This document shows, piece after piece, positions 3,679-47,212 of a DNA stretch of 64,000 nucleotides. A program made the position numbers and the translations under genes. The stretch lies in NCBI RefSeq assembly GCF_900215205.1, contig NZ_OBDY01000014.1:124001-188000 (forward strand), given 5' to 3'. The DNA is from Paractinoplanes atraurantiacus (lineage in GTDB: Bacteria > Actinomycetota > Actinomycetes > Mycobacteriales > Micromonosporaceae). Under the pieces are notes generated by a model. The model did no database searches. It saw only the letters and a list, made by a program, of their open reading frames with translations, and was not told where the DNA came from. Position 1 is the stretch's first letter. Each line of letters begins with the position of its first letter.

Positions 3679-3698
3679 CTCAGTCGAGCGACGTATGC
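3679..3698 (+). promoter_or_regulatory. shared operator element in front of the PEBP-hydrolase operon
   Basis: CTCAGTCGAGCGACGTATGC, ending 62 bp before the ATG at 3761. It has the perfect inverted core GTCG-AG-CGAC. It lies back to back with the site at 3649-3668, so one spacer serves two divergent operons at almost the same distance. Confidence 0.6.
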
Positions 3699-3760
3699 CG
3701 GCGGTCCCGCCCCTACCTAGCGTCGAGAACGTTCGAGCCACGCAACGATGGGAACCCGCC

Positions 3761-6354: not shown

Positions 6355-6415
6355 GACGGTCTCCTCCCAAGAGCTGGCTTCTTTGCCTCCACCGTCCGCC
6401 CTCGCGGGGATTGCC

Positions 6416-6435
6416 GTATACGCCGAACCACTGGT
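6416..6435 (-). promoter_or_regulatory. shared operator element in front of the MRJP-like gene
   Basis: Read towards the gene: ACCAGTGGTTCGGCGTATAC, ending 61 bp before the start at 6354. It matches the 3649 site at 15 of 20 positions. It overlaps the last base of the R1 stop codon, so part of the promoter lies at the R1 gene end. Confidence 0.55.
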
Positions 6436-9011
6436 CAAGCCGCCAGCAGATCGCGCAGGGACGTACGGCTGCTGACGCCGAGCTTCAGATAGACGTTGCG
6501 CAGGTGGGACCCGACCGTGCGGTGCGAGAGCATCAGCCGGGCCGCGATCTCCTTGTTGCTCAGACCCTCGACGGCGAGCTCCGCGACCTGCCGCTGCTGA
6601 GGGCTCAGTGAGGCGGCGATCCCCCGGTACGCCCGCTGGTTCGGGCGGCGCTCGGCCGGCCCGGACCCGGCCGCGGTGAGCTCGAATCGCGCCCAGATGG
6701 CGAATCCGGCCGCGCCCAGGCTCTCGAAGGTCTCCACAGCCGCGCGCAACAGCACCCGCGCTTCCAGGTAGCGGCGACGGCGGCGCAGCCACGCCCCGTG
6801 GTGGTACCGGGCCATCGCACGGTCGAACGGCGCGGAGGTGGCGGCGGCCCGGACGAGCCGGGCCTCGACGAGTGGGTCCTCGACCAGCAGGGCGGTCGCG
6901 TGCTCGACGACCGTGCCGGCCCGGTCGGAGGCCGGTTCGCCGTACGTCCCGAGGACCTTCGCCGCGTCGACGGTCTCCCCGGCCCGCGTCGCGCTGATCG
7001 CCAGTCCCAGCAGCGCGCGGCCGGTCGGGTCGGGGAACAGCGGCCGCCCGGCGGCGTCGAAGAGCCGCCGGAAGTATCGGTAGGCCGACTCGAAATCGTC
7101 CTGAGCCAGGGCGGCCAGCCCTTGCGCGTGGCACAGCATGACGAGCAGCCGGCCGTTCTCGCACAGGTCTACGGCCGCCCACACGGAATCGGCGAGCCTG
7201 CGGGCGGTCGCGCCGTCGCCGTGCAGGGCGGCCAGGGCCGCGCGCAGGGCGACCAGCTCGATCTCCAGCAGTGGGTGGTCGGCCCGTACGCACGCCTGCT
7301 CGGCCTCGTCCAGGATCGCCGCGGCCTCCGTCCAGCGGCCCAGGTCGAGCAGGCCGGCGACCAGCGGCATCCACATCTCGGGCGCGGTGGCGAGGGTACC
7401 GGCCGATCGCATCTCGGCCAGTGTGGACAGCCGCATCTCGACGGCGCCGGCCACGTCCCCGGCGGCGTCGGCCTGATGAGCCGGCAGCACCAGCTCGGGG
7501 AAGGCCGCCGACAGCGTGGCGAACTCGCTCCGATGCTCGGGCAGCCCGGAGAGGGTGGCGATGACCCCGGCCGTCGCGGCCACCTGGAAGTCATTCATGT
7601 CCTCCGGCGCCGCGCGCAGCCCGCTCAGGAGCCGGTCCATGGCCTGCCGCTGCCGGCCGGCGCGGGCCAGGGCCAGTGCCACCTCGATGTCGACGGCCAT
7701 CCCGAGCGGCCCGCCGAGGGCGGCCAGCCGGGCCTCGGCGGCGAGCTGGGCGACCCAGGCGGTCTGCCCGACCCGCCCGGCGCCGCGGACGGCCCGGATC
7801 TGGCGGGCGCGGGCATCGGTCACGCTGGTGGAGAGCAGCGCCGACCATTCGTGGGCCACCGTGGACAGGAACGGCTGCGTCTGCTGGGCCTCGCCGGCGG
7901 CACGGGCCAGGGCGTCCGCCACGACGTCGTCGGGCCCGGTCGCCGTCGCGGCCCGGTGCACCGTCTGGATGAGGCAGCCGTCGGGCAGCAGCGCCGCGAA
8001 GGCGCGGTGGATCCGGGTCCGGTCGGCCCCGGAGTGGTGGTTGAAGACGGCGACCTTGACCAGCGGGTCGCAGAAGACCACCTCACCCACGTCCACGTCC
8101 TCGTACAGGATCCCGGCCCGGACGGCATCGGCCAGCGCCGCCTCGGCGCGCTCGGCGGGCAGGCCGGTCGCGGCCAGCAGCACCGCGCTTGTCTCGCCGC
8201 CGATCTGGGTGCCGGCGTAGTCGACCAGCCGGGCCGTGTCCGGCGGCAGCGCGTCGAGGACGGCGGCGTAGCGCTGCCGCAACGCGAGCGCCTGGGTGAA
8301 CGGGAGGCGGCGGATGTTGTTGGTCCCGGTTCCGCCCATGATCCGGGCCAACTCGACCAGGGCGCCCGGGTTGCCGCGGGCCGTCCGCAGCAGGTCCAGG
8401 CGGCCCCGCCCGACCGGGGACTGCGGTTGCTCGGCCAGCAGTGTGGCGGCGTCCCGTTCGGACAGCGGCGGCAACCGGAACGCGGCCGGGAGCGTGTGCG
8501 CGGGGTCGGGCCGGCTCGAGGTGAGCACGACGACCGGCCGGCGGCGCAGCGGCTCGGCGAGAGCCTCGACGACGTGGCGGGAGACCGGGTCGAACATGTG
8601 CACGTCGTCGACGACGGCCAGCACCGGCCCGCGCCGGGCGGCCTCGCCGAGCAGCGCGGTCGCGCCGTCGAGCAGCCGCGAGCGCAGGCCGGCCGCGTCC
8701 TCGCCGTACAGGTTCAGCGCCCTCGCCGACGGCGCCAGCGAAGCCGGGAGCGGGCCCAGCCGCCGGCGCACCTGCCGGAGGATCTGATGCAGTCCGGACC
8801 CGGCGAACGGGTGCTCGTCGGGATAGCCGGCGGCCCGGAACACCTGATAGCCGTGGCCTTCGCCGGTCTCGGCGGCGTGCCGTAGGACGGCCGACTTGCC
8901 CATTCCGGGCGGCCCGACCACGGTGAGGGTCGCCCCGTACCGGCGCCGCGGATCCAGCAGGCCGGCCAGTGTCTCGCGGACCGCGTCCCGCCCGCGCAGT
9001 CCGCCGGTCAT
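6435..9011 (-). CDS. R1: LAL-type LuxR-family regulator, intact P-loop
   Basis: An 858-residue STAND-type regulator: N-terminal AAA ATPase, long alpha-helical TPR-like middle and C-terminal LuxR helix-turn-helix (LSPQQRQVAELAVEGLSNKE and following, about residues 795-858). The P-loop GPPGMGKS at 33-40 is canonical; Walker B is VLAVVDD; the sensor is RGNPGAL. LAL proteins (MalT/PikD type) are activators that bind ATP and an inducer before DNA. The start ATG overlaps the R2 stop (ATGA), so R2 and R1 are translated together. Closest in layout to R8 (shared helix near the HFRxxFDxxG segment), which has lost its P-loop lysine. Inducer unknown. Confidence 0.88.
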   Translation of the reverse strand: MTGGLRGRDAVRETLAGLLDPRRRYGATLTVVGPPGMGKSAVLRHAAETGEGHGYQVFRAAGYPDEHPFAGSGLHQILRQVRRRLGPLPASLAPSARALNLYGEDAAGLRSRLLDGATALLGEAARRGPVLAVVDDVHMFDPVSRHVVEALAEPLRRRPVVVLTSSRPDPAHTLPAAFRLPPLSERDAATLLAEQPQSPVGRGRLDLLRTARGNPGALVELARIMGGTGTNNIRRLPFTQALALRQRYAAVLDALPPDTARLVDYAGTQIGGETSAVLLAATGLPAERAEAALADAVRAGILYEDVDVGEVVFCDPLVKVAVFNHHSGADRTRIHRAFAALLPDGCLIQTVHRAATATGPDDVVADALARAAGEAQQTQPFLSTVAHEWSALLSTSVTDARARQIRAVRGAGRVGQTAWVAQLAAEARLAALGGPLGMAVDIEVALALARAGRQRQAMDRLLSGLRAAPEDMNDFQVAATAGVIATLSGLPEHRSEFATLSAAFPELVLPAHQADAAGDVAGAVEMRLSTLAEMRSAGTLATAPEMWMPLVAGLLDLGRWTEAAAILDEAEQACVRADHPLLEIELVALRAALAALHGDGATARRLADSVWAAVDLCENGRLLVMLCHAQGLAALAQDDFESAYRYFRRLFDAAGRPLFPDPTGRALLGLAISATRAGETVDAAKVLGTYGEPASDRAGTVVEHATALLVEDPLVEARLVRAAATSAPFDRAMARYHHGAWLRRRRRYLEARVLLRAAVETFESLGAAGFAIWARFELTAAGSGPAERRPNQRAYRGIAASLSPQQRQVAELAVEGLSNKEIAARLMLSHRTVGSHLRNVYLKLGVSSRTSLRDLLAA

Positions 9012-11680
9012 CGCGCCGGCACCATGTCGCGGAGCTGCCCACGCCGCACGACGCCGAGCTTCGGGAAGATGTGGTACAGGTGCGACATGATCGTGCGTGG
9101 TGACAGCCCCATCCGGTTCCCGATCTCCTGGTTGCTCAGGCCCTGGGCGGCCAACTGAGTGATCTGCCGTTGCTGCGCCGACAGCTGCGTGAAGGCGGCG
9201 GCGTCACCACCGGCCGGGCGGACGCCGGTCGCCCGCAAAAGTTCCTGCGCGGCGGCGGACACCGGGCCCTCGCCGATCCGGGTGAGGGCCTCGACCGCTT
9301 CGGCCAGGACCGGGCGGGCCTCGACGTACCGCCGGCGGCCGCGCAGCGCCCGCGCGTAGTGGACCTGGGCCACCGCGTACTCGTACGGGCGGTCCCGGCC
9401 CGACGGATCCGCCACCAGCGCACCCAGCCGGTCGACCGCTTCGGTCTCGGGTCCGAGCAGGGCGTACGCGTGTTCCAGCGCCCTTCGGTTCCGCGCCGCC
9501 GCGGTGTCGGCGGTGCGCGCCCAGGCCCGGATCCGGCTGCGGGCCGCCTCGGCCTGGCCGCACTCGACGGCCGAGTACGCCAGCTCGGCCAGCGGCCGCG
9601 GCGCGATCAGCCAGTGCACCGGGCGGCCGTCCGGGTCGAACATGGCCAGGAAGTGCCCGGTGGCGGTGGTGTGGTCGCCTTCGGCGGCCGCAAGCTGCCC
9701 GGCCGCCCGGTGGCCGAGACAGCGCGACATCCGGTCGGCGTAGGTGGACGGATCGCCGAACTGGCCGAGCCGCTCGCGCGCCTCCTCCAGCCGGCCGCGG
9801 CGTACCAGCAGGGTTATCCGCTGGGCGGCGGCGGCGTCGGTCATCCGCTCGAAGTGGGTGCCGGCCAGCACTTTGGTCGTCTGGTCGGACGCTGTCCCGG
9901 CCTCATCCCACAGTCCGGCCTCGAGCAGGGCTTCAATGAACGGAAAGACCACGCTGGGCGCCCAGAGCAGGGTGTCGGTGGCGAGCAGAACGGCCACCGC
10001 TCGCCGCAGGTGACCGACCGCGGTCGGCAGCTCGTCGAGCAACCAGGCCAGGCAGCCGACCTGGATCAGCCGGATCAGCTCGGCCGGGCCGTCGACCGGG
10101 CGCATCAGTGGGGACTCGGCCAGGGAACCGTACCGGCCGGGCCAGCCGGCCGGGTCGGCCACCGCCCACGCCAGGGCCAGCAACGGGTCGGACTCCCAGC
10201 CCGCGACTTCGGGTTCGCGAGCCAGCTCGACCACCCGCCGCAGAGCGGGCAGCTCGCCGGCGTCGCCGTTCACGAGGACGGCCCCAGCCGACAGCGAGGC
10301 CAAGGTCGAAACGACGAAGCGGTCGCGCAGGCCGACCGAGAGCAGCCGTTCGACGAGGCCGAAGGTTTGGGCCGGCGGATCGGTGACCAGGTTGGCGCCG
10401 ATTCCGGCGGCCGCGGCGGCGATCGCGTGATGGTCGTCGGTCAGCGTCACGACCCGCTGGAACAGTTCCTCGCACCAGGACAGGTAACCGCCCCGGGCCG
10501 CTTCGGCCGCGGCGGCGGTGTACCGGACGATGGCGGCGCCGGACTCGGGGCTTGTCTCGGCGGCGATCTGCAGCATCTCGGCTGCGACGAAGTACCGCTG
10601 CTCGGCAGTCGCGCCCGCCGCGGCCCGCTCGAGGGCAACGGCCAGTTCCTCGTCGACCGCCCCGGCTGCGGCCTTGGCCAGGTGCCAGGTGCGGCGGCCG
10701 GACCCGGCCGGCAGCTGAGCGGCGATCCGGGCATGCGCCGACCGGCGGTCTGCCTCGTGGGCGCCGAGGTAGACGACCGTCGGCACCATCGGGCTGGGGA
10801 ACTTCACCTCGTCGCCGTTGATGGCGAGCAGTCGCGCCTGCTCGGCGGGGCGGCAGTCGGCCAGGTCGGCGCCGGCTGCGGCCAAGACGATCTCCAGGCC
10901 CTCCTCGGTGCCGGCGGCCGCGTACAGCAGGACGCGCCGGGTCGCGACGGGCAAGTCCTCGACGGCGCCGGCGAAGGTCGTCGCGGCCCGGCCGGTGATC
11001 TGCAACCAGGCTCGGCCGGTTGACGGGATCCCGGCGCCGCGGGTCAGTTCGATCAGCGCGAGCGGGTTGCCCCCGGCCCGCCGGACGATCTCCTCGCGGA
11101 GCCGGCCGGCCGGTGGCAGCGGCTGCCGGTCGAGCAGCAGACCGGCCTCCACATCGTTGAGCGGCTGGACCAGGCACCGGGGCGCCCCGTACAGGCCCGG
11201 TGGCAGCGGCACCCGATCGGCGGCCGCGACAAGCAGGACGAAAGCCCGGGGCGGCAACCGGCGGGCGGCGAACAGCAGAACTGCGATCGCCTCGGCGTCC
11301 GCCCCGGTGACGTCATCCATGACGGCCAGGATCGGCGTGTTCCGGGCGGCCCGGTCGATCAGGTTCAGCGCGGCCATGCGAAGCGGCGCGGCCGGCAACT
11401 CGTCGAGGCCCGCACCGCCGTCGAGCACGCTCAGCACCGCGCGCAACCGGTCGTGCCCGGAGGCCGCGATCACCCGGCGGCCCGCTCGTTCGCCCACCGC
11501 CGCGCCGTACCGCAGCAACGCCGACCGGCCACCGCCCGGTTCGGCCGTCACCACCAGAACCGATTCTTCCTCCCCGGCCAGCAGCCGGTCGATCCGGTGC
11601 CGTTCGGCCCGGCGGCCCACCAGCGACTCGGGCCGGTCCTCCGCTCGTTGATGCTCTCTGTTCCGCGTAGCTGTCGACAT
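9008..11680 (-). CDS. R2: LAL-type LuxR-family regulator, P-loop Lys replaced by Arg
   Basis: 890 residues with the same architecture as R1. The P-loop reads AEPGGGRS (46-53): both the first Gly and the key Lys are gone, Lys being replaced by Arg52 (codon CGG). Walker B VMDD remains but the following residues are VTGAD instead of LHWLD. The C-terminus holds a normal LuxR helix-turn-helix ending GQLRDMVPAR, almost the same as R4, its nearest relative here. First gene of the R2-R1 operon; GAGGGG precedes the ATG at 11680. It shares the divergent spacer with R3 and has an operator element 46 bp upstream. Likely an ATP-independent or partner-dependent regulator. Confidence 0.86.
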   Translation of the reverse strand: MSTATRNREHQRAEDRPESLVGRRAERHRIDRLLAGEEESVLVVTAEPGGGRSALLRYGAAVGERAGRRVIAASGHDRLRAVLSVLDGGAGLDELPAAPLRMAALNLIDRAARNTPILAVMDDVTGADAEAIAVLLFAARRLPPRAFVLLVAAADRVPLPPGLYGAPRCLVQPLNDVEAGLLLDRQPLPPAGRLREEIVRRAGGNPLALIELTRGAGIPSTGRAWLQITGRAATTFAGAVEDLPVATRRVLLYAAAGTEEGLEIVLAAAGADLADCRPAEQARLLAINGDEVKFPSPMVPTVVYLGAHEADRRSAHARIAAQLPAGSGRRTWHLAKAAAGAVDEELAVALERAAAGATAEQRYFVAAEMLQIAAETSPESGAAIVRYTAAAAEAARGGYLSWCEELFQRVVTLTDDHHAIAAAAAGIGANLVTDPPAQTFGLVERLLSVGLRDRFVVSTLASLSAGAVLVNGDAGELPALRRVVELAREPEVAGWESDPLLALAWAVADPAGWPGRYGSLAESPLMRPVDGPAELIRLIQVGCLAWLLDELPTAVGHLRRAVAVLLATDTLLWAPSVVFPFIEALLEAGLWDEAGTASDQTTKVLAGTHFERMTDAAAAQRITLLVRRGRLEEARERLGQFGDPSTYADRMSRCLGHRAAGQLAAAEGDHTTATGHFLAMFDPDGRPVHWLIAPRPLAELAYSAVECGQAEAARSRIRAWARTADTAAARNRRALEHAYALLGPETEAVDRLGALVADPSGRDRPYEYAVAQVHYARALRGRRRYVEARPVLAEAVEALTRIGEGPVSAAAQELLRATGVRPAGGDAAAFTQLSAQQRQITQLAAQGLSNQEIGNRMGLSPRTIMSHLYHIFPKLGVVRRGQLRDMVPAR

Positions 11681-11726
11681 GTGATCCCCCTCGGAGAATC
11701 ACCCTTCGACATCCCGATCCGCACAG

Positions 11727-11746
11727 TCATGCGTCGGATGACCGTG
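11727..11746 (-). promoter_or_regulatory. shared operator element in front of R2
   Basis: CACGGTCATCCGACGCATGA read towards R2, 46 bp before its ATG. The 13-mer CGACGCATGACTG within and just after it recurs exactly, in the same orientation relative to the gene, in front of R4 (14146-14158). A weaker relative facing R3 lies at 11749-11768 (GGTCGCCGACG core with 1-nt spacing). Confidence 0.6.
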
Positions 11747-11840
11747 AACCCAGGTCGCCGACGTGGCCCTCCTACGGGCCGGTACTGATAAATGACTGCC
11801 GTCTCCGTCCAACCGGCCGGGAGAGCGCTTCGCGCCGCTA

Positions 11841-14126
11841 ATGTCGGCCACTGTGACAAGGCAGCCCGACGAGAGCCTGGTCGGGCGCTCGGCCGAGCGG
11901 ACCCGGCTCGCCACCCTGCTGCGGCAGGCGGCAACCGGCGGGCGGGCCGTGCTCGTCGAGGGCGACGCCGGGATCGGGAAGACCGCGCTGGTACGCGAGG
12001 TCGCCGACCGAGCCCGGGCGCGCGGGTTCCGGGAGCTCGGTGCCCGGGGAGTGCACGGCGCGGACACCGCCGGATTCAGCGGGCTGCACCAGATGCTGCA
12101 CCCGGTCCTCGACCAGATCGGCTCGCTGCCCGCCAACCAGAGTTCGGCGCTGCTGGTGGCGTTCGGGCACGAGGACGGGCCCGCCTCCGACCGGCTTCTG
12201 ATCGGCCTGGCCACCTCGGGTTTGCTCGCCACGGCCGCCGGCGCGGGCCCGCTGCTGGTGGTGGTGGACGACCTGCACTGGCTGGACCGGTCGAGCGCCG
12301 ACGTCGTCTCGTTCGTCGTACGACGGCTCGGTGCGGCGCCCGTCCTGCTGGTGGCGACCACCCGGACCGGCGAGACGTACGCCGACCGCAGCGACTCCTT
12401 CCCGGACGTGCTGAGGCTGGGGCCGCTCACGCCGGAGGACTCGGCGCGGCTGCTCGACCGGGTCGCCCCCGGCATCGGGGCGCGGGTCCGGCGGCGGATC
12501 CTGCACGCGTCGGCCGGGAACCCGCTGGCGTTGCACGAGCTTCCGACCGCGTTCGGCGACCGGGAGACGCTGGTTGACCAGGTGCCGATGACGGCCCGGC
12601 TCGAACAGGCCTTCCTGGCCGAGGTCACCCGGCTGCCGGAGCCGAGCCGCCAGGTTCTGCGCGTGGCGGCGGCCGGCCAGGATGCCCGGTTCGAGGAGTT
12701 GGTGGCCGCGGTCCGCGCGCTCGGGCACACCGAGGACGAGCTGCACGAGGTGGTCAAGGCTGGGCTGCTGCGGATCGAGGAGGGCCGGGTCTCGTTCCGC
12801 CACCCGCTGGTCGGGTCGGCGATCTACGGCGGTTCGCCGGCGCTGGACCGGTCCGGCGCGCACCGGGCACTCGCCTCGGTCACGGCCGATCCGGTCCGTG
12901 CGGCCTGGCATCGGGCGTCGGCCACGTACGGCTGGGACGAGGAGGTCGCCGCCGATCTGGAAGCCGGCGCTGAGGCCGCCCAGCGGCTGGGCGCCAACCC
13001 GGAGGCGATGATCACTTACCGGCGGGCGGCGGCCCTGTCCCCCGCCCTGCGCGACCGGGTCCGCAGGCTGGGCCGGGCCGCCGAGGCCGCCCGGCGCGGT
13101 GGCCTGACCGCCGAGGCGGTCGAGATGCTGCGCGAGGCGTCGCCGCTGGCCGAGGACCTGGCCGACGTCCGCGGACTGGCCCGTACGGAATGGCTGCTCA
13201 GCATGACCTCGGACGTGCCCGGTCGCGGCGCCCTCGACCTGGTCGCCCTGGCCGCCCGGCACGCCGGCCCCTCCGGCCGCGGCCATCCCGCCGAGCGGGC
13301 CGAGATCCTGCTGTGGGCCGCCATCAAGGCGTGGATCCTGCAGGAGGCCGATGAGGTGCGGACGGCCATCCGGCACGCCCTCGACGCGATCGAACCGGAC
13401 GGCCGGGGTGCGCCGCACGAGATCGCCCTGACCCTGCTCGACCCGGGGCGGGGCATGGACGCCCTCCGCGCGGACCTGCCCGAGCTCGCCCCGCGAATCC
13501 TCGGCCTCTACCCGGAGATGATGAACGTGCTCGCCTTCGCGGCCGAGGGCGCGCTCGACCTGGAGACGGCCGAACGGTGCTGGACCGCCGTCGTGGAGTT
13601 CGACCAGGCCTCGGGCCGGATCGGCGACGAGGCGGTGACCCGCTGCGGCCGGGCCATGTCGCGCATCCTGTCGGGCGAGCTGGACACCGGGCTGGCCGAC
13701 GCCGAGGAGTCGTTGCGGCTGTCCCGGGAGTTCGATCTGGAGATCGTGGGGGCCATGGCCGCCGCCGCGGTGGCGCTCGTGCGGGCGATCCGGGGCGAGA
13801 CTGCCGGCGCGCGGGCCGCCCTGGCCGAGGTGCGGGCCTTCCCGGGTGGGGCGGACTTCGCCCGCGTACGGGCGGTCGCCTCGTGGGCCGAAGGACTGGT
13901 GGCCGGCTGGGAGGGCCGCCACGACGACGCTGTGGACGCGCTGGCGGGCACCGCGGTCAACGACCCGATCGAGATCTGGGCGGGCCCCGACCTGGCCGCG
14001 GCGGCCGCGCGGGCCGGGCGTCCCGGCGCCGCGCGGCAATGGTTCGACAAGGTCGCGGCCCATCCCGGCGCGGCCGAACGGCTCCGGCTGGTGTCCCGGC
14101 TCGAACAGGGCCCGGGAGCCCTTTGA
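11841..14126 (+). CDS. R3: LAL-like STAND ATPase without the LuxR helix-turn-helix
   Basis: 761 residues. The ATPase is fully canonical: P-loop GDAGIGKT at 41-48, Walker B VVVDDLHWLDRSS, sensor AGNPLALHEL. It is closely related to R7 across its length but stops where R7 (907 aa) continues for about 150 more residues into the helix-turn-helix. Only 60 bp separate the R3 stop from R4, and no helix-turn-helix remnant fits there, so this is a clean deletion, not a late frameshift. R3 should be unable to bind DNA through this domain; R4 directly downstream has the DNA-binding domain but a dead P-loop. ATG 11841 lacks a strong ribosome binding site. Confidence 0.83.
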   Translation: MSATVTRQPDESLVGRSAERTRLATLLRQAATGGRAVLVEGDAGIGKTALVREVADRARARGFRELGARGVHGADTAGFSGLHQMLHPVLDQIGSLPANQSSALLVAFGHEDGPASDRLLIGLATSGLLATAAGAGPLLVVVDDLHWLDRSSADVVSFVVRRLGAAPVLLVATTRTGETYADRSDSFPDVLRLGPLTPEDSARLLDRVAPGIGARVRRRILHASAGNPLALHELPTAFGDRETLVDQVPMTARLEQAFLAEVTRLPEPSRQVLRVAAAGQDARFEELVAAVRALGHTEDELHEVVKAGLLRIEEGRVSFRHPLVGSAIYGGSPALDRSGAHRALASVTADPVRAAWHRASATYGWDEEVAADLEAGAEAAQRLGANPEAMITYRRAAALSPALRDRVRRLGRAAEAARRGGLTAEAVEMLREASPLAEDLADVRGLARTEWLLSMTSDVPGRGALDLVALAARHAGPSGRGHPAERAEILLWAAIKAWILQEADEVRTAIRHALDAIEPDGRGAPHEIALTLLDPGRGMDALRADLPELAPRILGLYPEMMNVLAFAAEGALDLETAERCWTAVVEFDQASGRIGDEAVTRCGRAMSRILSGELDTGLADAEESLRLSREFDLEIVGAMAAAAVALVRAIRGETAGARAALAEVRAFPGGADFARVRAVASWAEGLVAGWEGRHDDAVDALAGTAVNDPIEIWAGPDLAAAAARAGRPGAARQWFDKVAAHPGAAERLRLVSRLEQGPGAL

Positions 14127-14135
14127 CGGCGTCCC

Positions 14136-14155
14136 GTCAGTGAAGCGACGCATGA
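14136..14155 (+). promoter_or_regulatory. shared operator element between R3 and R4
   Basis: GTCAGTGAAGCGACGCATGA, 31 bp before ATG 14187. Together with the following CTG it contains the 13-mer CGACGCATGACTG found upstream of R2. Its presence inside the R3-R4 pair suggests R4 has its own promoter besides read-through from R3. Confidence 0.55.
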
Positions 14156-14186
14156 CTGAACTCGTCCCGGGCCGCATGGTGTGCAG

Positions 14187-16655: not shown

Positions 16656-16661
16656 GCAGGA

Positions 16662-19376: not shown

Positions 19377-19411
19377 GGCAGCAAGCGTAATCCGGGCGGC
19401 CCCGCACCTTG

Positions 19412-19431
19412 TTCAGTCATTCAACGGGTGC
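19412..19431 (+). promoter_or_regulatory. shared operator element in the R5/R6 divergent spacer
   Basis: TTCAGTCATTCAACGGGTGC towards R6, 52 bp before GTG 19484. The core GTCA-TT-CAAC reads GTTG-AA-TGAC towards R5, about 40 bp before its start, so one site could serve both genes. It is one of the weaker matches to the consensus. Confidence 0.45.
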
Positions 19432-19483
19432 CCCCGCACGATCTTCTCCGGCAGATTGGTCGATGACGAAAAGGGGGTGCATC

Positions 19484-22400
19484 GTGTCTCGGACGCTCAT
19501 CGGCCGCGAGCGGCAGATCGCGACGCTCTCCCATGCCCTGGACCGGCTCGACACCCCGGTGGCGATCCTCGGCGAGCCCGGCTCCGGACGTACGTCTCTG
19601 CTCGATCTCGTCGCCGACCGCGCCCGGCAGGCCGGTCACCTGGTCCTGCGCGGCCGCGACCTGGACGAGCTGCTACGGCCGGTCGCCGACCCGGCCCCAG
19701 CGACCGGCCTCGCGGTTCTCGCCCTCCTGCGGGCCGAGGCCCGGCGGCGGCCGGTGGTCCTGCTCGTCGACGACCTGCACCGGGCCGGGCCGGCGACCGC
19801 CCGGGTGCTGACCTTCCTGGCCCGCCGCCTCCGTGACGTCCCGATCCTGCTGGTGACCGCCGGTTCGGTGGCCGACGACGAACCGGACTGGCCGGCCGTT
19901 CCGGTAGCACTGGGCCCGCTGCCGGCCGAGGCGGCCGGAGAGCTGGTGGCCACGCTGCCGGAGACGTCGCGGGCCCGGGTCATCGACGCCGCACAGGGCA
20001 ACCCGCTGGCGCTGCGGGAGTTCGCGCGGACCGGCGACGTCCCGCCGTACGAGCCGCTGCCGGTGACCCGGCGACTGGCCGCCAGCGTGCTTGCCGACAC
20101 CGCGGGACTCCCGGCCGCCGCCCGGCGGTTCCTGCTGCTGGTGGCCGCGGCCGAGCAGCACCGGGTGCCCGAGCTGACCGCGGCCGCCCATCGCCTCGGG
20201 CTCGTCCCGGAAGACCTTGCACCGGCCGAGCGGGCCGGGCTGGTGTCCGTGTTCGGCGACCTCGTACGGATCCGCGGCCCGCTGCTGCGAACCGTCCTGT
20301 ACGGCGCGGCCGACCCGGCCGAACGGCACCAGGCCCACGACGCCCTGGCCGCCACCACCCTCGACGCCACCGTGGCCACCTGGCACCGATCGGCCCGGCG
20401 TACCGCCGAGGACGAGACCGCCGCGGCCGGCCTCGAGTCGGCGGCCCGTCACGCGGCCGGCCAGGGTGCGCTGCCGGGCGCGGTCGGGCTGCTCCAGCGG
20501 GCGGCGGCCCTGTCACCGAGCCCGGCCGACCGCACCCGCCGGCTCGCCGGCGCAGCCGAATTGGCCCGGCAGGCGGGCCGCAACGCCGAGGCGCACACCC
20601 TGGTCGGCACCGCCGCTGCGGCGGGGCCGGCCCCGGCCGTACGTGCGCGGTTGACTCTGACCACGACCAAGCTGCTGTTCGCCGAGGGGGCCGGGCTCGA
20701 GCCGGCCAACGCCGCCCCGGAGCCGGCCCGCGACCCGCTGTCCGGCACCGGCCCGTCCACTTCCGCCGACGGGCTGCCCGCTCTCGCCGATCGCGTGGCT
20801 GCGGCGTGCGAACGCCTGCGGGCCGAGACGCCCGGCGACGACGTCGCCGATGAGCTGGCCGACTGCGCGCGGGCGGCCGAGGCCCAGCACGCTCCCGAGT
20901 TGGCCGGGCAGTGCTGGGACCTGGTCGGAGAAGCCCTGAACGCACGCCCGGGCGCGGTGGCCGATCGCGTCGCCCTGCTGGCCGAGGAGTCGGTGAGCCG
21001 TGTGATTCGCGGCCGGCTCGCCGACGCCGAGGCGCGCACTATCCGCGCCGCCCGGCTCGCAACCGAGCTCGGTCTGCCGGGCCTGAGGGCGCTGGCCGGC
21101 GCCGGCCTCGCGCTGACCGCGGCCTGGACCGCCGGCCCCGCGTCCTCTCCCGGCCCCGCCTCCTCCCCCGTCCCGGCCGCGACGGCCGCGCCGGCGCTGG
21201 TCACGGCCGTCAACGGCTGGGCCGGCGGCCTGGTGGCGCTGCGTGAGGGACGGTTCGGCGACGCCTGGAACGCGCTGCGGGCCCTCGACGGCCACCGCAC
21301 CATCGCCTGGAACGCGGTCGGTGACCTGGCCTGGGCCGCCGCCGGAACCGGTGACCCGGCTCACCGGGCCGAAGCGGCCCGGCGGGTCGACCAGGCGGCC
21401 CGAGCGGCTGCCGCCCTGGACTCCGGCCACCTGTGGACGGTGGTGCTGCGCGGCCGGGCACTGCTCGACGACCGCGACCCCGAGCCGTGGTTCCAGCAGT
21501 CGGCGGCCGCGGGCCGCGCGGCCGGCGTCCCGCTCGAGCTGGCCCGCACCCTGCTCGCCTACGGAACCTGGCTACGCCTGCGGGGGCGCATGGTGGCCGC
21601 CCGCGAGCAGCTCACCGAGGCCCGCTTCCTGTTCGGCCGGGCCGGCGCCCGCCCGTGGGCCGCGCTGGCCGCTGCCGGGCTGCGCGGGGCCGGAGTCACC
21701 GCGAGCACACCGGCCGGCGCCCGTACCGCCCTCACCGCCCTCACCGCCCAGGAGCTGCGGGTAGCCCGGTTGGCGGCCGACGGCCTGACCAACAAGCAGA
21801 TCGCCGTCCGGATCCACTGCGCCTCCCGGACGGTCGGCGCGTACCTCTACGACGCCTTCCCGAAGCTGGGCGTCACCCGCCGGTCCGGGCTGCGCGCCGC
21901 CCTGGCCGCGTACGAGACGTCAGCGGCCGGCCGCCCACAGCACGGCGAGCTGCGACCGCTGGGAGATGCCGAGCTTGCCGAAGATCTTCTGCAGGTGGTC
22001 GGCGACGGTGCGCGGCGAAAGGTGCAGCTGACCGGCGATCTCGTTGTTGGTCAGCCCGCGGGCGGCCAGCCCGGCGACCTGCGCCTCGCGCGTGGTCAAC
22101 AGCCCGGTCGGGTCCTGCCGGGCACGCTGACCGGCCACGCCCGAACCCGCCAGGGCCAGCTCGTTCCCGGCGCGCGCCGCCCAGCTCTCGGCGCCGGCCT
22201 CGCGGAGCAGCTCCACGGCGGCGGTGAGCTGTTCACGGGCCTCGGCGACATGCCGGGCGCGGCGCAACCACTCACCGAACAGCAACCGCGTACGTCCGAG
22301 GTCGAACGCCGAACCGGCCCGGAGGCCGTGCTCGACAGCAGCCTCGAAGAGCTCTCGCGCCTGTCCATCGACGGCCAGCAGGGCCTGCGCCCGAGCCCGG

Positions 22401-24472
22401 GCGTGCTGAAGGCTCGTGGCACCCGGCAGCCCGGCGGCAGCGGTGGCGAGCATGGCGAGCCGCCGTTGCGCCGCCTCGGTACGCCCGGCCCGGACGGCCG
22501 CCTCGACGCTGTCGGCGGCCGCCCACAACTCGATCGGCTCGTTGACCGAGGTGCCCTCGAGAGCGGTGAGCGCGTCGGCGTACCGGCCCTCGTCCAGCGC
22601 GATCAGACCCTCCGCCCAGGCGGTGACAGCCTGAATGCGGGGCACCTCGGCGCCGGGGAACTCGCCCAGTTGCTCGATCGCCGACCGGGCGCGCGCCAGG
22701 TCACCGATCCGGGCGCTGCCCAGCGCGACGTCGGCGGCGGCCATCGCCCCGGTGATCCCGAGGTCGAAGTCGGCCGAAAGGCGCAGCGCCTGTTCGCCGT
22801 CGGCGAGCCCGCCGATCAGGTCGCCGGCGACGATCCGAGGAGAGGACCGGCCACAGATCGCGGTCGCCTCGTCGCCGAGCCGGCCCGCCGCGTGGTGGTG
22901 GTCGGCCGCGATCGTCCAGCATTCCACCGCGGTCGCGAGGTCCTGCTCGCCCTCGGCCGCGAACGCCAGGAAATTCATGATCACCGGGTCGATGGCGAGG
23001 ATCCGCGGGGCCAGCGCGGACAGATCGCGGAAGGTGGCGCCCCCACCGGGAGCGATCAGCGCCATGCCGACCTGATGCAACTCGTCCCGGTCGCCGGGCG
23101 GGATCTCCTCCAGCGCCGCCCGGACCACCCGGCGGACCTCCTCCGGTTCCTGGAAGGTCCGCGAGTTGCTGGCCGCCCAGAGCAGGATCTCGATCTGGTC
23201 GGCGGGCCGCGCGCCCTCGGCCCGACCGAGCCGGGCGGCCAGGGCGACCAGGTCGAGCACGCTCGGACCGGCCAGGCTCCCGGTGACACTGAGCAGCCAT
23301 TCGGCCCGGGCCAGGACGCGGATGTCGGTGGGGTCCTGGGCCAGCGGCAACGCCTCGCGGACCAGGTCGGCCGCCTCGGCCGACAGACCGCCGGCGCGGG
23401 CCGACTCGGTGGCCGCGGCCAGGCGGCGGACCCGGTTCGCGACGGCCGGCGACAGCGCGGCCGCCCGGCGGAAGGCGATCATGGCCTCGGGATGGGCGCC
23501 GTGCCGGCGGGCCTGATTCGCGGCCGCCTCGAGATCGGCCGCCACGTCTTCGTCGAATCCGAACGCCGCCGCGGCCCGGTGCAGCGCCGCCCGGCCGGGG
23601 TCGTGAGCCACGCTCGCGAGCGCGGTGTGCACGCCGGCCCGATCGGTCAGCGAGGCGCCTCCGTAGACGGCCGAGCTGACCAGCGGGTGGGAGAAGACGG
23701 CCCGGCCGCCGTCCATCCGCAGCAGGCCGCTGCGTTCGACCGGCTCGAGGTCGGCCGGCGACAGCCCGGCCGCGCCGAGGGCCGCCTCGAACTCGCCGGC
23801 GGCCAGATCCTCGCCCGCCGCGGCCAGCAGCAACACGCTCCGGCCGGCGACCGGCAACTGGTTGACCTCGGCCATGAAGGCCTGCTCGAGACGTTCGGTC
23901 ATCGGCAACCGGTCGCTGTCGTCGAGGCTTCCACCGGCCGTCGCCGCGGCCAGTTCGCGCAATGCCAGCGGGTTGCCCGACGCCGCGGCCAGAAGCTTGC
24001 GCCGCGGGCGGGCGCCGAGCTCGGGCGCGACCCGGTCGAGCAGCGCCGAGGCGTCCTCCGGAGCGAGCGTGGACAGCCGGATGACCTCCGGGAACGCCCC
24101 GCCGCGATCAGGGTACGCGGCATCGGTCCGGGTCGTGGCCACCAGCAGCACAGGTGCCGCGGCGAGCCGGCGGGCCACGAAGGCGATGACGTCCGCGCTC
24201 GACCGGTCCAGCCAGTGCAGATCGTCCACCGTGATCAGGAGCGGGCCCGCCGCGGCGGCCTCCTCCAGCAGGCTCTGCACGGCCAGGCTGATCAGCAGCC
24301 GGTCGGGGGCCGGGCCCTCCTGCTCGCCGAACGCCACCAGCAGCGCCGCCCGCTGACTCTCGGGCAGGGCGGCCACCCGGTCCAGAACCGGGTGCAGCAC
24401 CTGGTGGAGGCCGCCGAAGCCGGTGGCGCCCACGCCCTGGACCCCGCGCGCCGCCAGCTCCCGAAACCCTGA
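19484..24472 (+). CDS. R6: LAL-type LuxR-family regulator, P-loop Lys replaced by Arg; natural stop codon missing
   Basis: The family-like part is about 815 residues (19484 to about 21930): P-loop GEPGSGRT with Arg36 for Lys, Walker B LLVDDLHRAG, sensor QGNPLALREF, TPR-like middle and a full LuxR helix-turn-helix (LTAQELRVARLAADGLTNKQ and following). There is then no stop. The frame runs on antisense to R7, codon-aligned with it, until TGA at 24470-24472, adding about 850 residues with no family similarity. R7 ends at 21920, so the two genes meet tail to tail and the R6 stop seems to have been lost. GTG 19484 was chosen for AAGGGGG 6-7 nt upstream; ATG 19463 is in frame. The mature protein may be processed or tagged; whether the extension is translated is unknown. 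Confidence 0.7.
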   Translation: MSRTLIGRERQIATLSHALDRLDTPVAILGEPGSGRTSLLDLVADRARQAGHLVLRGRDLDELLRPVADPAPATGLAVLALLRAEARRRPVVLLVDDLHRAGPATARVLTFLARRLRDVPILLVTAGSVADDEPDWPAVPVALGPLPAEAAGELVATLPETSRARVIDAAQGNPLALREFARTGDVPPYEPLPVTRRLAASVLADTAGLPAAARRFLLLVAAAEQHRVPELTAAAHRLGLVPEDLAPAERAGLVSVFGDLVRIRGPLLRTVLYGAADPAERHQAHDALAATTLDATVATWHRSARRTAEDETAAAGLESAARHAAGQGALPGAVGLLQRAAALSPSPADRTRRLAGAAELARQAGRNAEAHTLVGTAAAAGPAPAVRARLTLTTTKLLFAEGAGLEPANAAPEPARDPLSGTGPSTSADGLPALADRVAAACERLRAETPGDDVADELADCARAAEAQHAPELAGQCWDLVGEALNARPGAVADRVALLAEESVSRVIRGRLADAEARTIRAARLATELGLPGLRALAGAGLALTAAWTAGPASSPGPASSPVPAATAAPALVTAVNGWAGGLVALREGRFGDAWNALRALDGHRTIAWNAVGDLAWAAAGTGDPAHRAEAARRVDQAARAAAALDSGHLWTVVLRGRALLDDRDPEPWFQQSAAAGRAAGVPLELARTLLAYGTWLRLRGRMVAAREQLTEARFLFGRAGARPWAALAAAGLRGAGVTASTPAGARTALTALTAQELRVARLAADGLTNKQIAVRIHCASRTVGAYLYDAFPKLGVTRRSGLRAALAAYETSAAGRPQHGELRPLGDAELAEDLLQVVGDGARRKVQLTGDLVVGQPAGGQPGDLRLARGQQPGRVLPGTLTGHARTRQGQLVPGARRPALGAGLAEQLHGGGELFTGLGDMPGAAQPLTEQQPRTSEVERRTGPEAVLDSSLEELSRLSIDGQQGLRPSPGVLKARGTRQPGGSGGEHGEPPLRRLGTPGPDGRLDAVGGRPQLDRLVDRGALESGERVGVPALVQRDQTLRPGGDSLNAGHLGAGELAQLLDRRPGARQVTDPGAAQRDVGGGHRPGDPEVEVGRKAQRLFAVGEPADQVAGDDPRRGPATDRGRLVAEPARRVVVVGRDRPAFHRGREVLLALGRERQEIHDHRVDGEDPRGQRGQIAEGGAPTGSDQRHADLMQLVPVAGRDLLQRRPDHPADLLRFLEGPRVAGRPEQDLDLVGGPRALGPTEPGGQGDQVEHARTGQAPGDTEQPFGPGQDADVGGVLGQRQRLADQVGRLGRQTAGAGRLGGRGQAADPVRDGRRQRGRPAEGDHGLGMGAVPAGLIRGRLEIGRHVFVESERRRGPVQRRPAGVVSHARERGVHAGPIGQRGASVDGRADQRVGEDGPAAVHPQQAAAFDRLEVGRRQPGRAEGRLELAGGQILARRGQQQHAPAGDRQLVDLGHEGLLETFGHRQPVAVVEASTGRRRGQFAQCQRVARRRGQKLAPRAGAELGRDPVEQRRGVLRSERGQPDDLRERPAAIRVRGIGPGRGHQQHRCRGEPAGHEGDDVRARPVQPVQIVHRDQERARRGGLLQQALHGQADQQPVGGRALLLAERHQQRRPLTLGQGGHPVQNRVQHLVEAAEAGGAHALDPARRQLPKP

Positions 24473-24643
24473 TACCAGCGCGCGTGCCGACAAATCCTGT
24501 AAAAGGGACGTCTTGCCGATGCCGGGTGTGCCTTCGATCAGAACCGCCGTGCCCCGGTCGTGCACGCCCTCCAACAGAGTGCCGAGCTTTTCGCTCTCGA
24601 TAGCTCGGCCGACCAGGGCTCCGGACTGCTGCGGCAAGATCAC
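21920..24643 (-). CDS. R7: LAL-type LuxR-family regulator, intact P-loop
   Basis: 907 residues, the most canonical of the set: P-loop GTPGIGKT (38-45), Walker B TVDDLHWLDRSS, sensor SGNPLALREL, a long TPR-like region and a C-terminal LuxR helix-turn-helix (LTTREAQVAGLAARGLTNNE and following). It is the full-length relative of R3. Start is GTG 24641-24643; an earlier start would enter the spacer. Its 3' end overlaps the R6 reading frame and, read backwards, nearly its whole length forms the R6 extension. This requires that R7 uses almost no TTA, CTA or TCA codons in that frame, as is normal at this GC. An operator element sits 67 bp upstream. Confidence 0.87.
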   Translation of the reverse strand: MILPQQSGALVGRAIESEKLGTLLEGVHDRGTAVLIEGTPGIGKTSLLQDLSARALVSGFRELAARGVQGVGATGFGGLHQVLHPVLDRVAALPESQRAALLVAFGEQEGPAPDRLLISLAVQSLLEEAAAAGPLLITVDDLHWLDRSSADVIAFVARRLAAAPVLLVATTRTDAAYPDRGGAFPEVIRLSTLAPEDASALLDRVAPELGARPRRKLLAAASGNPLALRELAAATAGGSLDDSDRLPMTERLEQAFMAEVNQLPVAGRSVLLLAAAGEDLAAGEFEAALGAAGLSPADLEPVERSGLLRMDGGRAVFSHPLVSSAVYGGASLTDRAGVHTALASVAHDPGRAALHRAAAAFGFDEDVAADLEAAANQARRHGAHPEAMIAFRRAAALSPAVANRVRRLAAATESARAGGLSAEAADLVREALPLAQDPTDIRVLARAEWLLSVTGSLAGPSVLDLVALAARLGRAEGARPADQIEILLWAASNSRTFQEPEEVRRVVRAALEEIPPGDRDELHQVGMALIAPGGGATFRDLSALAPRILAIDPVIMNFLAFAAEGEQDLATAVECWTIAADHHHAAGRLGDEATAICGRSSPRIVAGDLIGGLADGEQALRLSADFDLGITGAMAAADVALGSARIGDLARARSAIEQLGEFPGAEVPRIQAVTAWAEGLIALDEGRYADALTALEGTSVNEPIELWAAADSVEAAVRAGRTEAAQRRLAMLATAAAGLPGATSLQHARARAQALLAVDGQARELFEAAVEHGLRAGSAFDLGRTRLLFGEWLRRARHVAEAREQLTAAVELLREAGAESWAARAGNELALAGSGVAGQRARQDPTGLLTTREAQVAGLAARGLTNNEIAGQLHLSPRTVADHLQKIFGKLGISQRSQLAVLWAAGR

Positions 24644-24696
24644 GGACGGAGTCTATTTCAGCGCTGAGCTGGCGTTAAGGTCCGAACGGACCACTG

Positions 24697-24714
24697 CTGT
24701 TGCCCGCGCAACAG
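24697..24714. promoter_or_regulatory. palindrome in the R7/R8 divergent spacer
   Basis: CTGTTGC-CCGC-GCAACAG, 7-bp perfect arms, adjoining the operator-like element at 24711-24730 and central in the 160-bp spacer. Could be an operator for either gene; no counterpart was seen in the other spacers. Confidence 0.4.
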
Positions 24715-24730
24715 TTGTCATTCGACTGAT
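24711..24730 (-). promoter_or_regulatory. shared operator element in front of R7
   Basis: ATCAGTCGAATGACAACTGT read towards R7, 67 bp before GTG 24643; core GTCG-AA-TGAC. A weaker R8-facing relative lies at 24753-24772 (CAGTCGATCGTG). Confidence 0.45.
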
Positions 24731-24803
24731 AACCGCCGCGAGTCTCCTCCCGCACAGTCGATCGTGTGGCCGGTCGGCGCCACGCGAGACGGAGGGGATG
24801 ACC

Positions 24804-27152
24804 GTGGGGACGACCTTGCTGGGCCGGGACGACGAATGGGCGCGCCTGCGCACCGCCCTCGACGCCGGCTTCGAGATCGGTGTCGTGGCCGGCGCGGGCC
24901 AGGGCTTGTCGGCGTTCCTGACAGCGGCGGCCGAGGACGCCCTCGCCCGAGGCCACCACGTGGTGCACATGGCCGGTCACCGCGACGAGCATGACCACGA
25001 GGGCGCGGCGCTGCAACAGCTCATCTGGCCACTGCGCGCGGCCGTGGCCGGCATCCTGACCGACGACGACCGGTCGGCGGTGACGGCGGCGGCAACACTG
25101 CGCCCGCGGGCCGGCCAGGATTTGGCCGCGGCTCTCGCCGACGGCGCGCACCGCCTGCTGGCCGCGCCCGGGCGGACCGGGCCGCTGCTGATCGTGGTCG
25201 ACGACCTGCACCTGTGCGACCCGCTGTCGGCCCGCGTCCTGCGCGACCTCGGCCGCCGCACGTACCGCAACCCGGTCGTGTTCCTTCTGGGCGTGCGCCG
25301 GCACCGGGCCGCCGACCTGCTGTGGCCGGGCATGTGCACGATCGAGCTCGGGCCACTCCCCGACGTCGACGCCGCGCGCCTGCTGGACCGCCAGGCGGTG
25401 GCTCTCTCCGGCCGTGCGCGCCTGCGCCTGCTGGACCGGGCCCGCGGCAAGCCGCGCGCCATCGTGGAGCTGGCCGCGGCATTCGACGGGGCACCGGCCT
25501 GGGCGGTCCTGCAACCGCCGCCGTCGCGGTCGGACCCGCTGCGCCAGCGCCACGCGGCCGACCTGGCCGGTCTCGACCCCGCCACGCTGGCCCTCGCCCG
25601 CCAGGTGAGCGCCCAACTGACCGACGAGGACGTCACAGCGGTACTCGCGGCGAGCGGGGTGCCCGAAGAGGTCCTGACTTCGGCTGTCGCGTCGGGACTG
25701 CTCGAGACCGACGGCCGTACGGTCCGATTCGCCGACCCGGCGGCCGGGGTCGCGGCCTACCTGTCCTGTTCGGCGCTGGAGCGAGCGGCCCTGCACGACA
25801 GGTTCGCCGCGGTACTGCCGGGCGCCCCGCACCGGACGGCCACGGCGCCCGAAACGACCACCGCCGGGCCGATCGCCGCCGCGCATCAGGCGGCCGCGGC
25901 GGCCGGGCCGAGCGAACCGATCGCCACCGCGCTGGAACGGGCCGCCGACCGGGTCACCGGCCCCGATCGCCGGGCCGACACGCTGGCCTGGGCGGCCGAG
26001 CTCTCACCGGATCCGGCCGACGCCGCCCGGCGGTACTCGGCCGCGGCTCTCACCGCCGGCCGTCCCGACTGGGTGCTGGAGCTGCACGCCGCCGCGGAAG
26101 CTCACGGTGGCGCCACCCGCGACGCCACGGTGCAAGCCGTGCTGGCCCTGTGCCGAAGCGGACGCACCGACGAGGCCGCCGACCTCGCAAACGACCCGGA
26201 CGCGGCGTACATCCTGGACGTCTATCGCGGACGAGAGCCGGACGAGGCCGACTCGCGGCTCGGGTTCCCGGAACTGTTCCTTCCCCGCGCCGGTGCGCTG
26301 ATCAACGCCGGGCGCTGGGCCGCCGCCGACGCCGTCCTCACCGAGGCCGAGAACCTGAGCCACGTATCCGGCCTGGCCGTACTGGCGGCGGAGGTCGCCA
26401 CTCTGCGTGCGGTCCTGGCCGGGCTCCGCGGCGACCGCGCCGCTGCCCGCCTCCGCCCGGTCATGCGGCCCACCGGCCGGCTCGTCGCCTGGGTCCACGA
26501 GGCGCAGGGCCTGGCCGAGTTCGCGGACGGAAATCACGAGCGGGCCTACCAGCACTTCCGTGACTTCTTCGACCCCGGCGGACACGGCCGGCACCTCGAC
26601 CCGTACGGCCGAATGTTGTCCTTCCTGGCTCTCACAGCCGTCTGGGCCGACCGCGTCGGCGACGCCGGCCGGGTGATGGACGCGGCCGGTGCGAGCGAGC
26701 AGGTCCGGGCCCTGCTCAACGGCGACCTCCGCCCAGCCGCACTCGACGCGGCCGGCCCGCTTGAAGGCGCGCTGGCGCACCTTCAGCACGGCATCCGGCT
26801 GCGGCGCGACCGGCGGATCCGGCCCGCCCGGGTCGAACTGTCGACAGCGCTGGCTGCCTTCGAGGACCTGGGCGCGGCCGGTTTCGCCGACACCGCCCGC
26901 AACGAATTGCGGGCGGCCGGGGCCGACCCCGCCAAGCCGGTCGCCGCGCCTGGGGCCACCGACCCGCTCGACCGCCTCAGCCCGCAACAGCGCAACGTCG
27001 TCCTGCTAGCCGCCCGCGGCCTGCGCAATCAGGAGATCGCGAGCCGCCTCAACCTCTCGATGCGGACGATCGGCACGCATCTCCACCACGCCTACCCGAA
27101 GCTCGGCGTCGGCGGCCGCCACGAGCTGGCCGCCATGCTCGACGCCGGCTGA
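24804..27152 (+). CDS. R8: LAL-type LuxR-family regulator, P-loop Lys replaced by Leu
   Basis: 782 residues from GTG 24804, which lies 6-8 nt after GGAGGGG; ATG 24798 is in frame but only 2 nt from the same ribosome binding site. The P-loop region AGAGQGLS has lost both the first Gly and the Lys (Leu35). Walker B VVDDLHLCD is kept; the sensor is altered to RGKPRAI instead of GNPLAL. Complete C-terminal helix-turn-helix (LSPQQRNVVLLAARGLRNQE and following). Related to R1 through the helical segment HFRDFFDPGG. The in-frame extension back to 24423 overlaps R7 and is not supported. Predicted DNA-binding but ATPase-defective member. Confidence 0.84.
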   Translation: MGTTLLGRDDEWARLRTALDAGFEIGVVAGAGQGLSAFLTAAAEDALARGHHVVHMAGHRDEHDHEGAALQQLIWPLRAAVAGILTDDDRSAVTAAATLRPRAGQDLAAALADGAHRLLAAPGRTGPLLIVVDDLHLCDPLSARVLRDLGRRTYRNPVVFLLGVRRHRAADLLWPGMCTIELGPLPDVDAARLLDRQAVALSGRARLRLLDRARGKPRAIVELAAAFDGAPAWAVLQPPPSRSDPLRQRHAADLAGLDPATLALARQVSAQLTDEDVTAVLAASGVPEEVLTSAVASGLLETDGRTVRFADPAAGVAAYLSCSALERAALHDRFAAVLPGAPHRTATAPETTTAGPIAAAHQAAAAAGPSEPIATALERAADRVTGPDRRADTLAWAAELSPDPADAARRYSAAALTAGRPDWVLELHAAAEAHGGATRDATVQAVLALCRSGRTDEAADLANDPDAAYILDVYRGREPDEADSRLGFPELFLPRAGALINAGRWAAADAVLTEAENLSHVSGLAVLAAEVATLRAVLAGLRGDRAAARLRPVMRPTGRLVAWVHEAQGLAEFADGNHERAYQHFRDFFDPGGHGRHLDPYGRMLSFLALTAVWADRVGDAGRVMDAAGASEQVRALLNGDLRPAALDAAGPLEGALAHLQHGIRLRRDRRIRPARVELSTALAAFEDLGAAGFADTARNELRAAGADPAKPVAAPGATDPLDRLSPQQRNVVLLAARGLRNQEIASRLNLSMRTIGTHLHHAYPKLGVGGRHELAAMLDAG

Positions 27153-47153: not shown

Positions 47154-47212
47154 CACAGAAGGAACTTAGAACAAGTGTTCGATTGCCTCAAGGTTGGTCC
47201 GGTCTAACCACG

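Follow-up and report, generated by a model that had tools for sequence, protein, structure and literature searches.

Lys-bearing and Lys-less LAL regulators in a recurrent two-gene operon: candidate heteromeric STAND switches

Introduction

LAL (large ATP-binding LuxR-type) regulators control antibiotic production and other pathways of actinomycetes, and they are usually treated as single proteins that switch themselves. Here we analyze a 64,000-nucleotide stretch of DNA from the soil actinomycete Paractinoplanes atraurantiacus (contig NZ_OBDY01000014.1, positions 124,001 to 188,000; hereafter the window) from a genome of 10.9 Mb, in which positions 6435-27152 hold eight LAL regulators of the STAND type, R1 to R8, that belong to several subfamilies. 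Half of them lack the P-loop (Walker A) Lys, and two of the eight, R2 and R1, form a two-gene unit whose relatives in other genomes often carry a single Lys between both partners.

The weight of this Lys has been probed in a few described systems. For the LAL MilR, the accessible part of the report states that K37A and K37R each abolished activity, so that an exchange of Lys for Arg is not mild there (PMC5015266). Among the paired NLRs of plants, a P-loop mutation inactivates RGA4/RGA5 and RRS1/RPS4 when it lies in the helper and not when it lies in the sensor, according to the accessible part of PMC9528088. In Caulobacter, the CARD-NLR-like proteins LypA and LypB have one degenerate and one intact ATPase domain and are both needed (PMC13236601, accessible part). 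Lys-less or paired LALs were not found in the literature that we searched by title and start of abstract, most subscription journals lying outside its coverage.

Results

A two-gene LAL operon and its relatives

LAL genes were sorted with a tree of 81 LALs, and genes collected later were assigned by their best BLAST match to those 81; two genes of genome G100 were labeled as first and second by hand (best matches, a Ib gene and L103). Genomes, contigs and loci are given as G, C and L numbers. Regions were picked for their resemblance to R1, R4 or a IIa protein, with a list of AAA_16 matches as a further source for the genome that holds the window; the choice was blind to the P-loop, but the sample is not random. 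The tree splits the first genes (clade I, 27 rows) from the second genes (clade II, 27 rows), with R2 and R4 in clade Ia and R1 and R8 in clade IIa. R2 (9008..11680, minus strand) is the first gene of a two-gene unit and overlaps the second, R1 (6435..9011, minus strand), by 4 bases. R2 has Arg in place of the P-loop Lys (AEPGGGRS; Walker B, VMDDVT) and R1 has the Lys (GPPGMGKS; Walker B, VVDDVH), and both have a helix-turn-helix (HTH). R2 is the deepest Ia branch, the remaining ten Ia genes grouping at 100/99, and R1 is the deepest IIa branch with a support of only 54/89.

Outside the window, every clade I- or II-type gene that we found adjoins a same-strand partner of the other kind, and none an opposite-strand one; the only unpaired genes of these types are R4 and R8, both in the window. 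In 26 of the 31 pairs on a list of same-strand neighbors, the parts matched by hidden Markov models are 0-94 bases apart, and in the other five (G013, G025, G034 3331, G039 and G053) they are 1.1-2.4 kb apart, with the gene order reversed in the G013 and G053 pairs; genes scoring below 250 bits or matched over fewer than 500 residues were excluded from these spacings and from the per-gene Lys counts below. Furthermore, the distances among first genes mirror those among second genes, with a mirror-tree r of 0.961 for 10 Ia/IIa pairs, 0.906 for 16 Ib/IIb pairs and 0.968 over 26 pairs (26 of 34 used), for which the within-group permutation maximum was 0.818; none of 2000 permutations attained the observed r in any of the three sets. 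Such mirrored distances indicate that the paired genes travelled together, and they are not proof of protein contact. Within the window, only R2-R1 consists of two linked, co-evolving partners, and the best reading of the trees is that it represents one case of a two-gene LAL operon that probably arose from an old duplication and was inherited as a unit.

P-loop Lys in the paired genes

The P-loops were readable in 32 of 34 pairs, G034 3331/3327 and G058 C289 being omitted for a missing N-terminus. The P-loop of the G051 Ia gene was read by eye in this pair count and treated as unreadable in the per-gene count, and the unreadable P-loops outside the window belong to two first, one second and four unpaired genes. 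Both partners have the Lys in 13 of the 32 pairs, exactly one partner in 16 and neither in three. The coupling of one LAL that has the Lys to one that lacks it, which a preliminary description of this locus had proposed, is thus real and recurrent. The clade I gene is the Lys-bearing one in 15 of the 16 one-Lys pairs, the reversed case being R2-R1. About half of the operons therefore have exactly one partner, usually the second, that lacks the Lys and yet keeps the full-length STAND, repeat and HTH arrangement.

Outside the window, the Lys is missing from 19 of 32 clade II-type (second) genes, 3 of 31 clade I-type (first) genes and 4 of 59 unpaired LALs. The second gene is Lys-less in all nine other Ia/IIa pairs (five have T, two have M, and I and A occur once each), and the first gene is Lys-bearing in eight of the nine if the frameshifted G051 gene, whose P-loop was read by eye, is included; R2-R1 shows the opposite, with the Lys on the second gene (R1) and not on the first (R2). 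The G051 gene lies in a single-contig genome (C1, L041 about 13145-15900), and its P-loop, GEPGAGKT, is intact. A third subfamily of LAL pairs has Arg for Lys in the second gene at five of five loci: L180 (G025 C18), L185 (G039 C164), L045 (G042 C1), L240 (G029 C34) and L239 (G058 C289). In a second sample of 101 LALs, whose loci were picked with R1/R8-like patterns and come partly from the same genomes as the pair survey, 91 of 100 readable P-loops have the Lys, and six of the nine Lys-less ones are IIa. The residues replacing the Lys vary among R, L, T, M, A and I.

Selection on Lys-less relatives

The preliminary description took the retained open frames of the Lys-less genes as an argument against decay. 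Open frames are weak evidence in DNA of 70% GC: antisense to R1, R2 and R3 run open reading frames of 695, 617 and 854 aa, respectively, and 24 of 79 LAL coding sequences have a register-aligned antisense frame that remains open for at least 90% of its length. Since stop-free antisense frames are this common, open frames say little.

Selection was measured on relatives of the array genes. The NG86 ratio of nonsynonymous to synonymous substitution rates (dN/dS) was 0.41-0.43, 0.34 and 0.33 in three sets of Lys-less IIa relatives. For the Ia partners it was 0.40-0.46 and 0.32 (two sets), and for a neighbor with the Lys 0.26-0.33; the absolute values are rough because of a strong GC bias at third positions. 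For the ATPase domain alone (G002/G042/G055), dN/dS was 0.59-0.64 in IIa versus 0.47-0.59 in Ia, which suggests that the IIa domain is slightly looser, if at all. In a codon-model test run in IQ-TREE, omega = 1 was rejected both for the IIa set of G002/G042/G055 (lnL, the log-likelihood, -6827.4 with omega fixed versus -6535.5; 2 delta lnL = 584) and for the corresponding Ia set (lnL -6899.8 fixed versus -6613.2). The Lys-less IIa relatives thus appear to be under purifying selection much like their Ia partners (dN/dS 0.33-0.43 versus 0.32-0.46), and the preliminary view that the Lys-less genes do not evolve neutrally holds for these relatives. The Lys-less state of IIa occurs at nine loci in eight other genomes, with pairwise identities of 44-76%. 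A DNA search of 67 genomes of the genus gave no close relative of R4 (best match, 70% over about one third of the gene), and a close relative of R1 was likewise missing, its best protein match being 44%.

ATPase motifs and predicted folds

Motifs were counted in the classes of the 81-row tree, with unreadable rows dropped. In IIa, the Lys is absent from 10 of 11 proteins (the exception is R1) and the first P-loop Gly from 8 of 11, and all 11 have the two later P-loop Gly and both Walker B Asp with the following H (DDxH); the sensor Arg is present in 10 of 11. All 10 Lys-less IIa proteins combine the Walker B Asp pair, the later P-loop Gly and the HTH. In Ia, 7 of 10 proteins have the P-loop Lys, 8 of 10 the second Walker B Asp and 6 of 10 the sensor Arg, and none of 10 has the H/Q of the Walker B motif DDx[HQ]. 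Meanwhile, the IIa proteins of L032 (G029 C12) and L035 (G058 C369) are matched over 1166 and 1064 residues, compared with 784-894 in the other nine.

An N-terminal AAA_16 domain scores above the Pfam cut-off in seven of the eight array proteins; it was undetected by Pfam at E 0.001 in R2, which is homologous by alignment and predicted fold. Among the first four Foldseek matches of the R8 model (pLDDT 82) are Avs3, 6mfv and CED-4 (E 6.8e-8 to 9.3e-5), and the top match of the R2 model (pLDDT 83) is 6mfv (E 9.6e-9), most of its further matches being repeat proteins. The TM-scores of these STAND matches are low to moderate (0.12-0.44), and both models have a helical repeat region between the ends. 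The Lys-less R8 and R2 are therefore predicted to adopt a STAND-like fold.

The R1-R8 array

The eight P-loops listed in the preliminary description are correct in letters, order and coordinates, and the Lys is indeed missing from every second gene: the Walker A Lys typical of LALs is present in R1, R3, R5 and R7, and R2, R4, R6 and R8 are LAL homologues without it. A LuxR-type HTH scores above the Pfam cut-off in R1, R2, R4, R5, R6, R7 and R8. The statement that the degenerate genes keep their HTH was right for all four (GerE/LuxR matches); of their reading frames, that of R6 has no stop codon of its own.

To the right of the R2-R1 unit, R3 (11841..14126, plus strand; GDAGIGKT) is an R7-type LAL of 761 aa that bears the Lys and lacks the C-terminus with the HTH, being 146 aa shorter than R7; its HTH had no Pfam match, and tblastn with the R7 C-terminus between R3 and R4 found nothing. 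R4 (14181..16655, plus strand) is a clade Ia gene with Leu in place of the Lys (GDAGIGLS) and with an HTH. It begins 55 bases after R3, and the two together hold one full set of parts. R5 (16662..19376, minus strand; GQTGVGKT) is a divergent neighbor of R6 (19484..21919, plus strand), which has Arg for Lys (GEPGSGRT) and an HTH; its start was chosen as GTG 19484. R6 has no stop of its own before R7 (21920..24643, minus strand; GTPGIGKT), the frame staying open antisense through R7 to 24472. In G034 (C1:4122645-4127936) an R6-type gene is likewise stopless, its frame running antisense through the R7-type gene; the window's own genome has a further R6-type gene, on contig C22, that terminates normally. 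R8 (24798..27152, plus strand; start chosen as ATG 24798) is a clade IIa gene with Leu for Lys (AGAGQGLS), Walker B VVDDLH and an HTH. A ninth LAL, R0, with a Lys-less P-loop (GLAGTGRS), is located 6.6 kb from R1, just outside the left edge of the window. Further left of R0 (L001 1544-7759) is a gene for a 2071-aa protein in which YD/RHS-like repeats and a HINT-like region near the C-terminus were recognized by eye.

Given four Lys-less genes out of eight, strict alternation has a probability of 2/70 = 0.029, uncorrected for having been noticed post hoc, and with R0 added the pattern x-K-x-K-x-K-x-K-x still holds. As a principle, however, it fails in the homologous arrays. The syntenic G034 array (C1:4119897-4133459) reads K in R5, I in R6, K in R7, T in Ia and I in IIa, that is K-x-K-x-x; contig C22 of the window's genome has an R7/R6/R5-type array that reads K-K-K, the G002 and G042 arrays read x-K-K, and the G055 array has an unreadable P-loop followed by K, K, T, K and K. 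Conserved strict alternation is ruled out by these arrays. The preliminary description had itself looked to homologous arrays with losses off the rule: they exist, and they count against the alternation and not against the pair. The sister pairs R1-R8, R2-R4, R3-R7 and R5-R6 in a nine-gene tree rule out that the alternation came from a single duplicated K/x couple. With relatives added, the Lys losses of R2 and R4 turn out to be separate, three changes being forced in Ia, and in the 81-LAL tree R8 sits in a mostly Lys-less subfamily, with R6 and R0 placed elsewhere. Since the losses arose separately in different subfamilies and the pattern is not conserved, the trees indicate that the alternation over R1-R8 is a local, composite result of interleaved subfamilies, which explains it without selection on gene order.

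Neighboring genes

Three genes flanking the array also lie beside the LALs of G014 C38 and G034 4118-4138k: a PEBP-like gene (Pfam PBP; 3695..4282, plus strand; 91% and 76% identity, respectively), a major-royal-jelly (MRJP)/SMP-30-like gene (5317..6366, minus strand; 81% and 74%) and a zinc-type alcohol dehydrogenase gene (27190..28173, minus strand; 75% and 55%). They are the nearest candidate targets of the regulators, and only candidates. Farther right, an NgoMIV-type restriction enzyme gene is followed by a gene with a GmrSD_N domain (30967-33140), and a Prim-Pol gene is followed by a DUF3631 gene (47183-49479; all by Pfam). We take the latter arrangement to resemble integrated plasmid-like elements.

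Discussion

We favor, with moderate confidence, the reading that these operons encode heteromeric LAL switches in which an ATP-driven subunit is joined by a pseudo-ATPase one. By analogy with the known pairs, the two products would assemble into a mixed oligomer. Its ATP/ADP switch would be the subunit with the Lys; the one without would be a non-switching co-subunit that may set the threshold or hold the complex off and would contribute its own HTH at the target promoters. In R2-R1 the roles would be swapped, R1 having the P-loop Lys and R2 being the pseudo-ATPase. If this is true, the operon would be a bacterial counterpart of the sensor/helper STAND pairs, and the role-exchanged R2-R1 would provide a natural control.

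Several observations weigh against this reading. A dead partner is dispensable in the 13 of 32 pairs in which both genes have the Lys, and in three pairs (G034b, one Ib/IIb pair of G042 and the G053 pair) neither has it. R4 and R8 have no adjoining partner at all. Second genes are more often Lys-less by Fisher's test (p = 4.6e-5 versus first genes and 7.9e-8 versus unpaired genes), but these values overstate independence, because the excess goes back to deep losses that have persisted in IIa and the third subfamily; counted by eye on the trees, there were about 5-6 loss events in second genes and 5 in first genes, those of R2 and R4 among them, which suggests that the clades differ in the persistence of the Lys-less state and not clearly in the rate of loss. 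The position of R1 outside the Lys-less IIa rows is weakly supported by the tree. Linkage of co-inherited genes also lifts the mirror-tree r without physical contact. The flanking genes occur at only two of the nine other IIa loci, and the stretches retrieved around the remaining seven had none of them. Finally, Pik-1/Pik-2 activity is lost by a P-loop mutation in either partner according to the accessible part of PMC9528088, so that a pair need not work with one P-loop.

Other explanations have to be weighed against the same data. The Lys-less members could be redundant copies slowly decaying in an expanding LAL family, the alternation and the pairing being accidents of tandem duplication and the frames being kept open by the high GC content. 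Open frames are cheap, as the antisense frames (617-854 aa in the array; nearly open in 24 of 79 sequences) show; R3 has lost its HTH, R6 its stop and the G051 Ia gene its frame; the replacements of the Lys vary; the ATPase-domain dN/dS in G002/G042/G055 is, if at all, slightly higher for IIa; and the selection data come from relatives of R2, R4, R6 and R8. We nevertheless regard decay as rather unlikely, because the whole-gene NG86 dN/dS is the same in the Lys-less IIa genes as in their Lys-bearing partners, with omega = 1 rejected in the single IIa set tested, because the Walker B Asp pair, the later P-loop Gly and the HTH are intact in 10 of 10 Lys-less IIa proteins, and because Lys-less IIa genes are found at nine loci in eight other genomes at 44-76% identity. 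Should the Lys-less LALs bind nucleotide anyway, there would be no dead partner, and the pairs would be two similar regulators. The Walker B Asp pair in all 11 IIa proteins agrees with this, whereas MilR lost its function with K37A and K37R (PMC5015266, accessible part) and the first P-loop Gly is missing too in 8 of 11 IIa proteins; with K37R inactive, Arg for Lys would be expected to matter in R2 and R6 as well, and nucleotide binding without the Lys is in our view unlikely.

The motifs hint at another arrangement, in which the Ia/IIa couple would be a split ATP switch whose half-sites are completed only in the mixed oligomer, so that it would fire only as a heteromer. IIa keeps DDxH while Ia is without its last residue, which suggests complementary loss; the Ib/IIb controls weaken the suggestion, the H/Q also being absent from 8 of 16 Ib and 5 of 15 IIb proteins, most of whose pairs have both Lys. 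Such a split switch, which in R2-R1 would have collapsed onto R1 (Lys and DDxH) and left R2 without both, seems quite improbable. The preliminary description proposed four functional pairs; on this reading all four neighbor couples of the array would be sensor/helper pairs and the alternation would be selected. The exact alternation reaching R0 and the recurrence of R5/R6 as divergent neighbors in G034 and on contig C22 speak for it. Yet R2-R1 is the sole conserved co-directional clade I/II pair in the window, and no alternation is seen in the syntenic G034 array or the other arrays read. At the three loci with divergent R5/R6 the Lys status is K/x, K/x and K/K, the C22 counterpart keeping both Lys. 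R3/R4 has a partial parallel in G002, G042 and G055, where a Ia gene is preceded on its own strand by an R7-like gene, with the Lys in both; R7 and R8 adjoin only in the window among the loci examined, G034 having a Ia gene between them. R5/R6 and R7/R8 are thus divergent, but not conserved as Lys/Lys-less pairs. As a general rule, the four couples already appear contradicted by these comparisons, and we hold them to be very improbable.

Compared with the LAL/MalT-type regulators MilR, PikD and MalT, the array proteins share the order of an N-terminal AAA_16/STAND ATPase, helical repeats and a C-terminal LuxR-type HTH. They differ in that MilR and PikD require the Walker A Lys, as stated in the accessible part of PMC5015266, whereas half of the array is Lys-less, and in that one operon here couples a Lys-bearing with a Lys-less LAL. 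With the plant pairs RGA4/RGA5 and RRS1/RPS4, our preferred heteromeric switch shares clustered, co-evolved STAND partners; the plant pairs, however, are mostly head-to-head and have an integrated extra domain in the sensor, whereas the LAL pairs are co-directional (no neighboring clade I and II genes lie on opposite strands), have no added Pfam domain in R1 or R2 and would be expected to act on transcription. LypA/LypB likewise are bacterial NLR-like partners with one degenerate and one intact ATPase; as far as the accessible text of PMC13236601 goes, LypA bears a peptidase domain and the system ends in lysis, whereas here both partners are homologous DNA-binding regulators.

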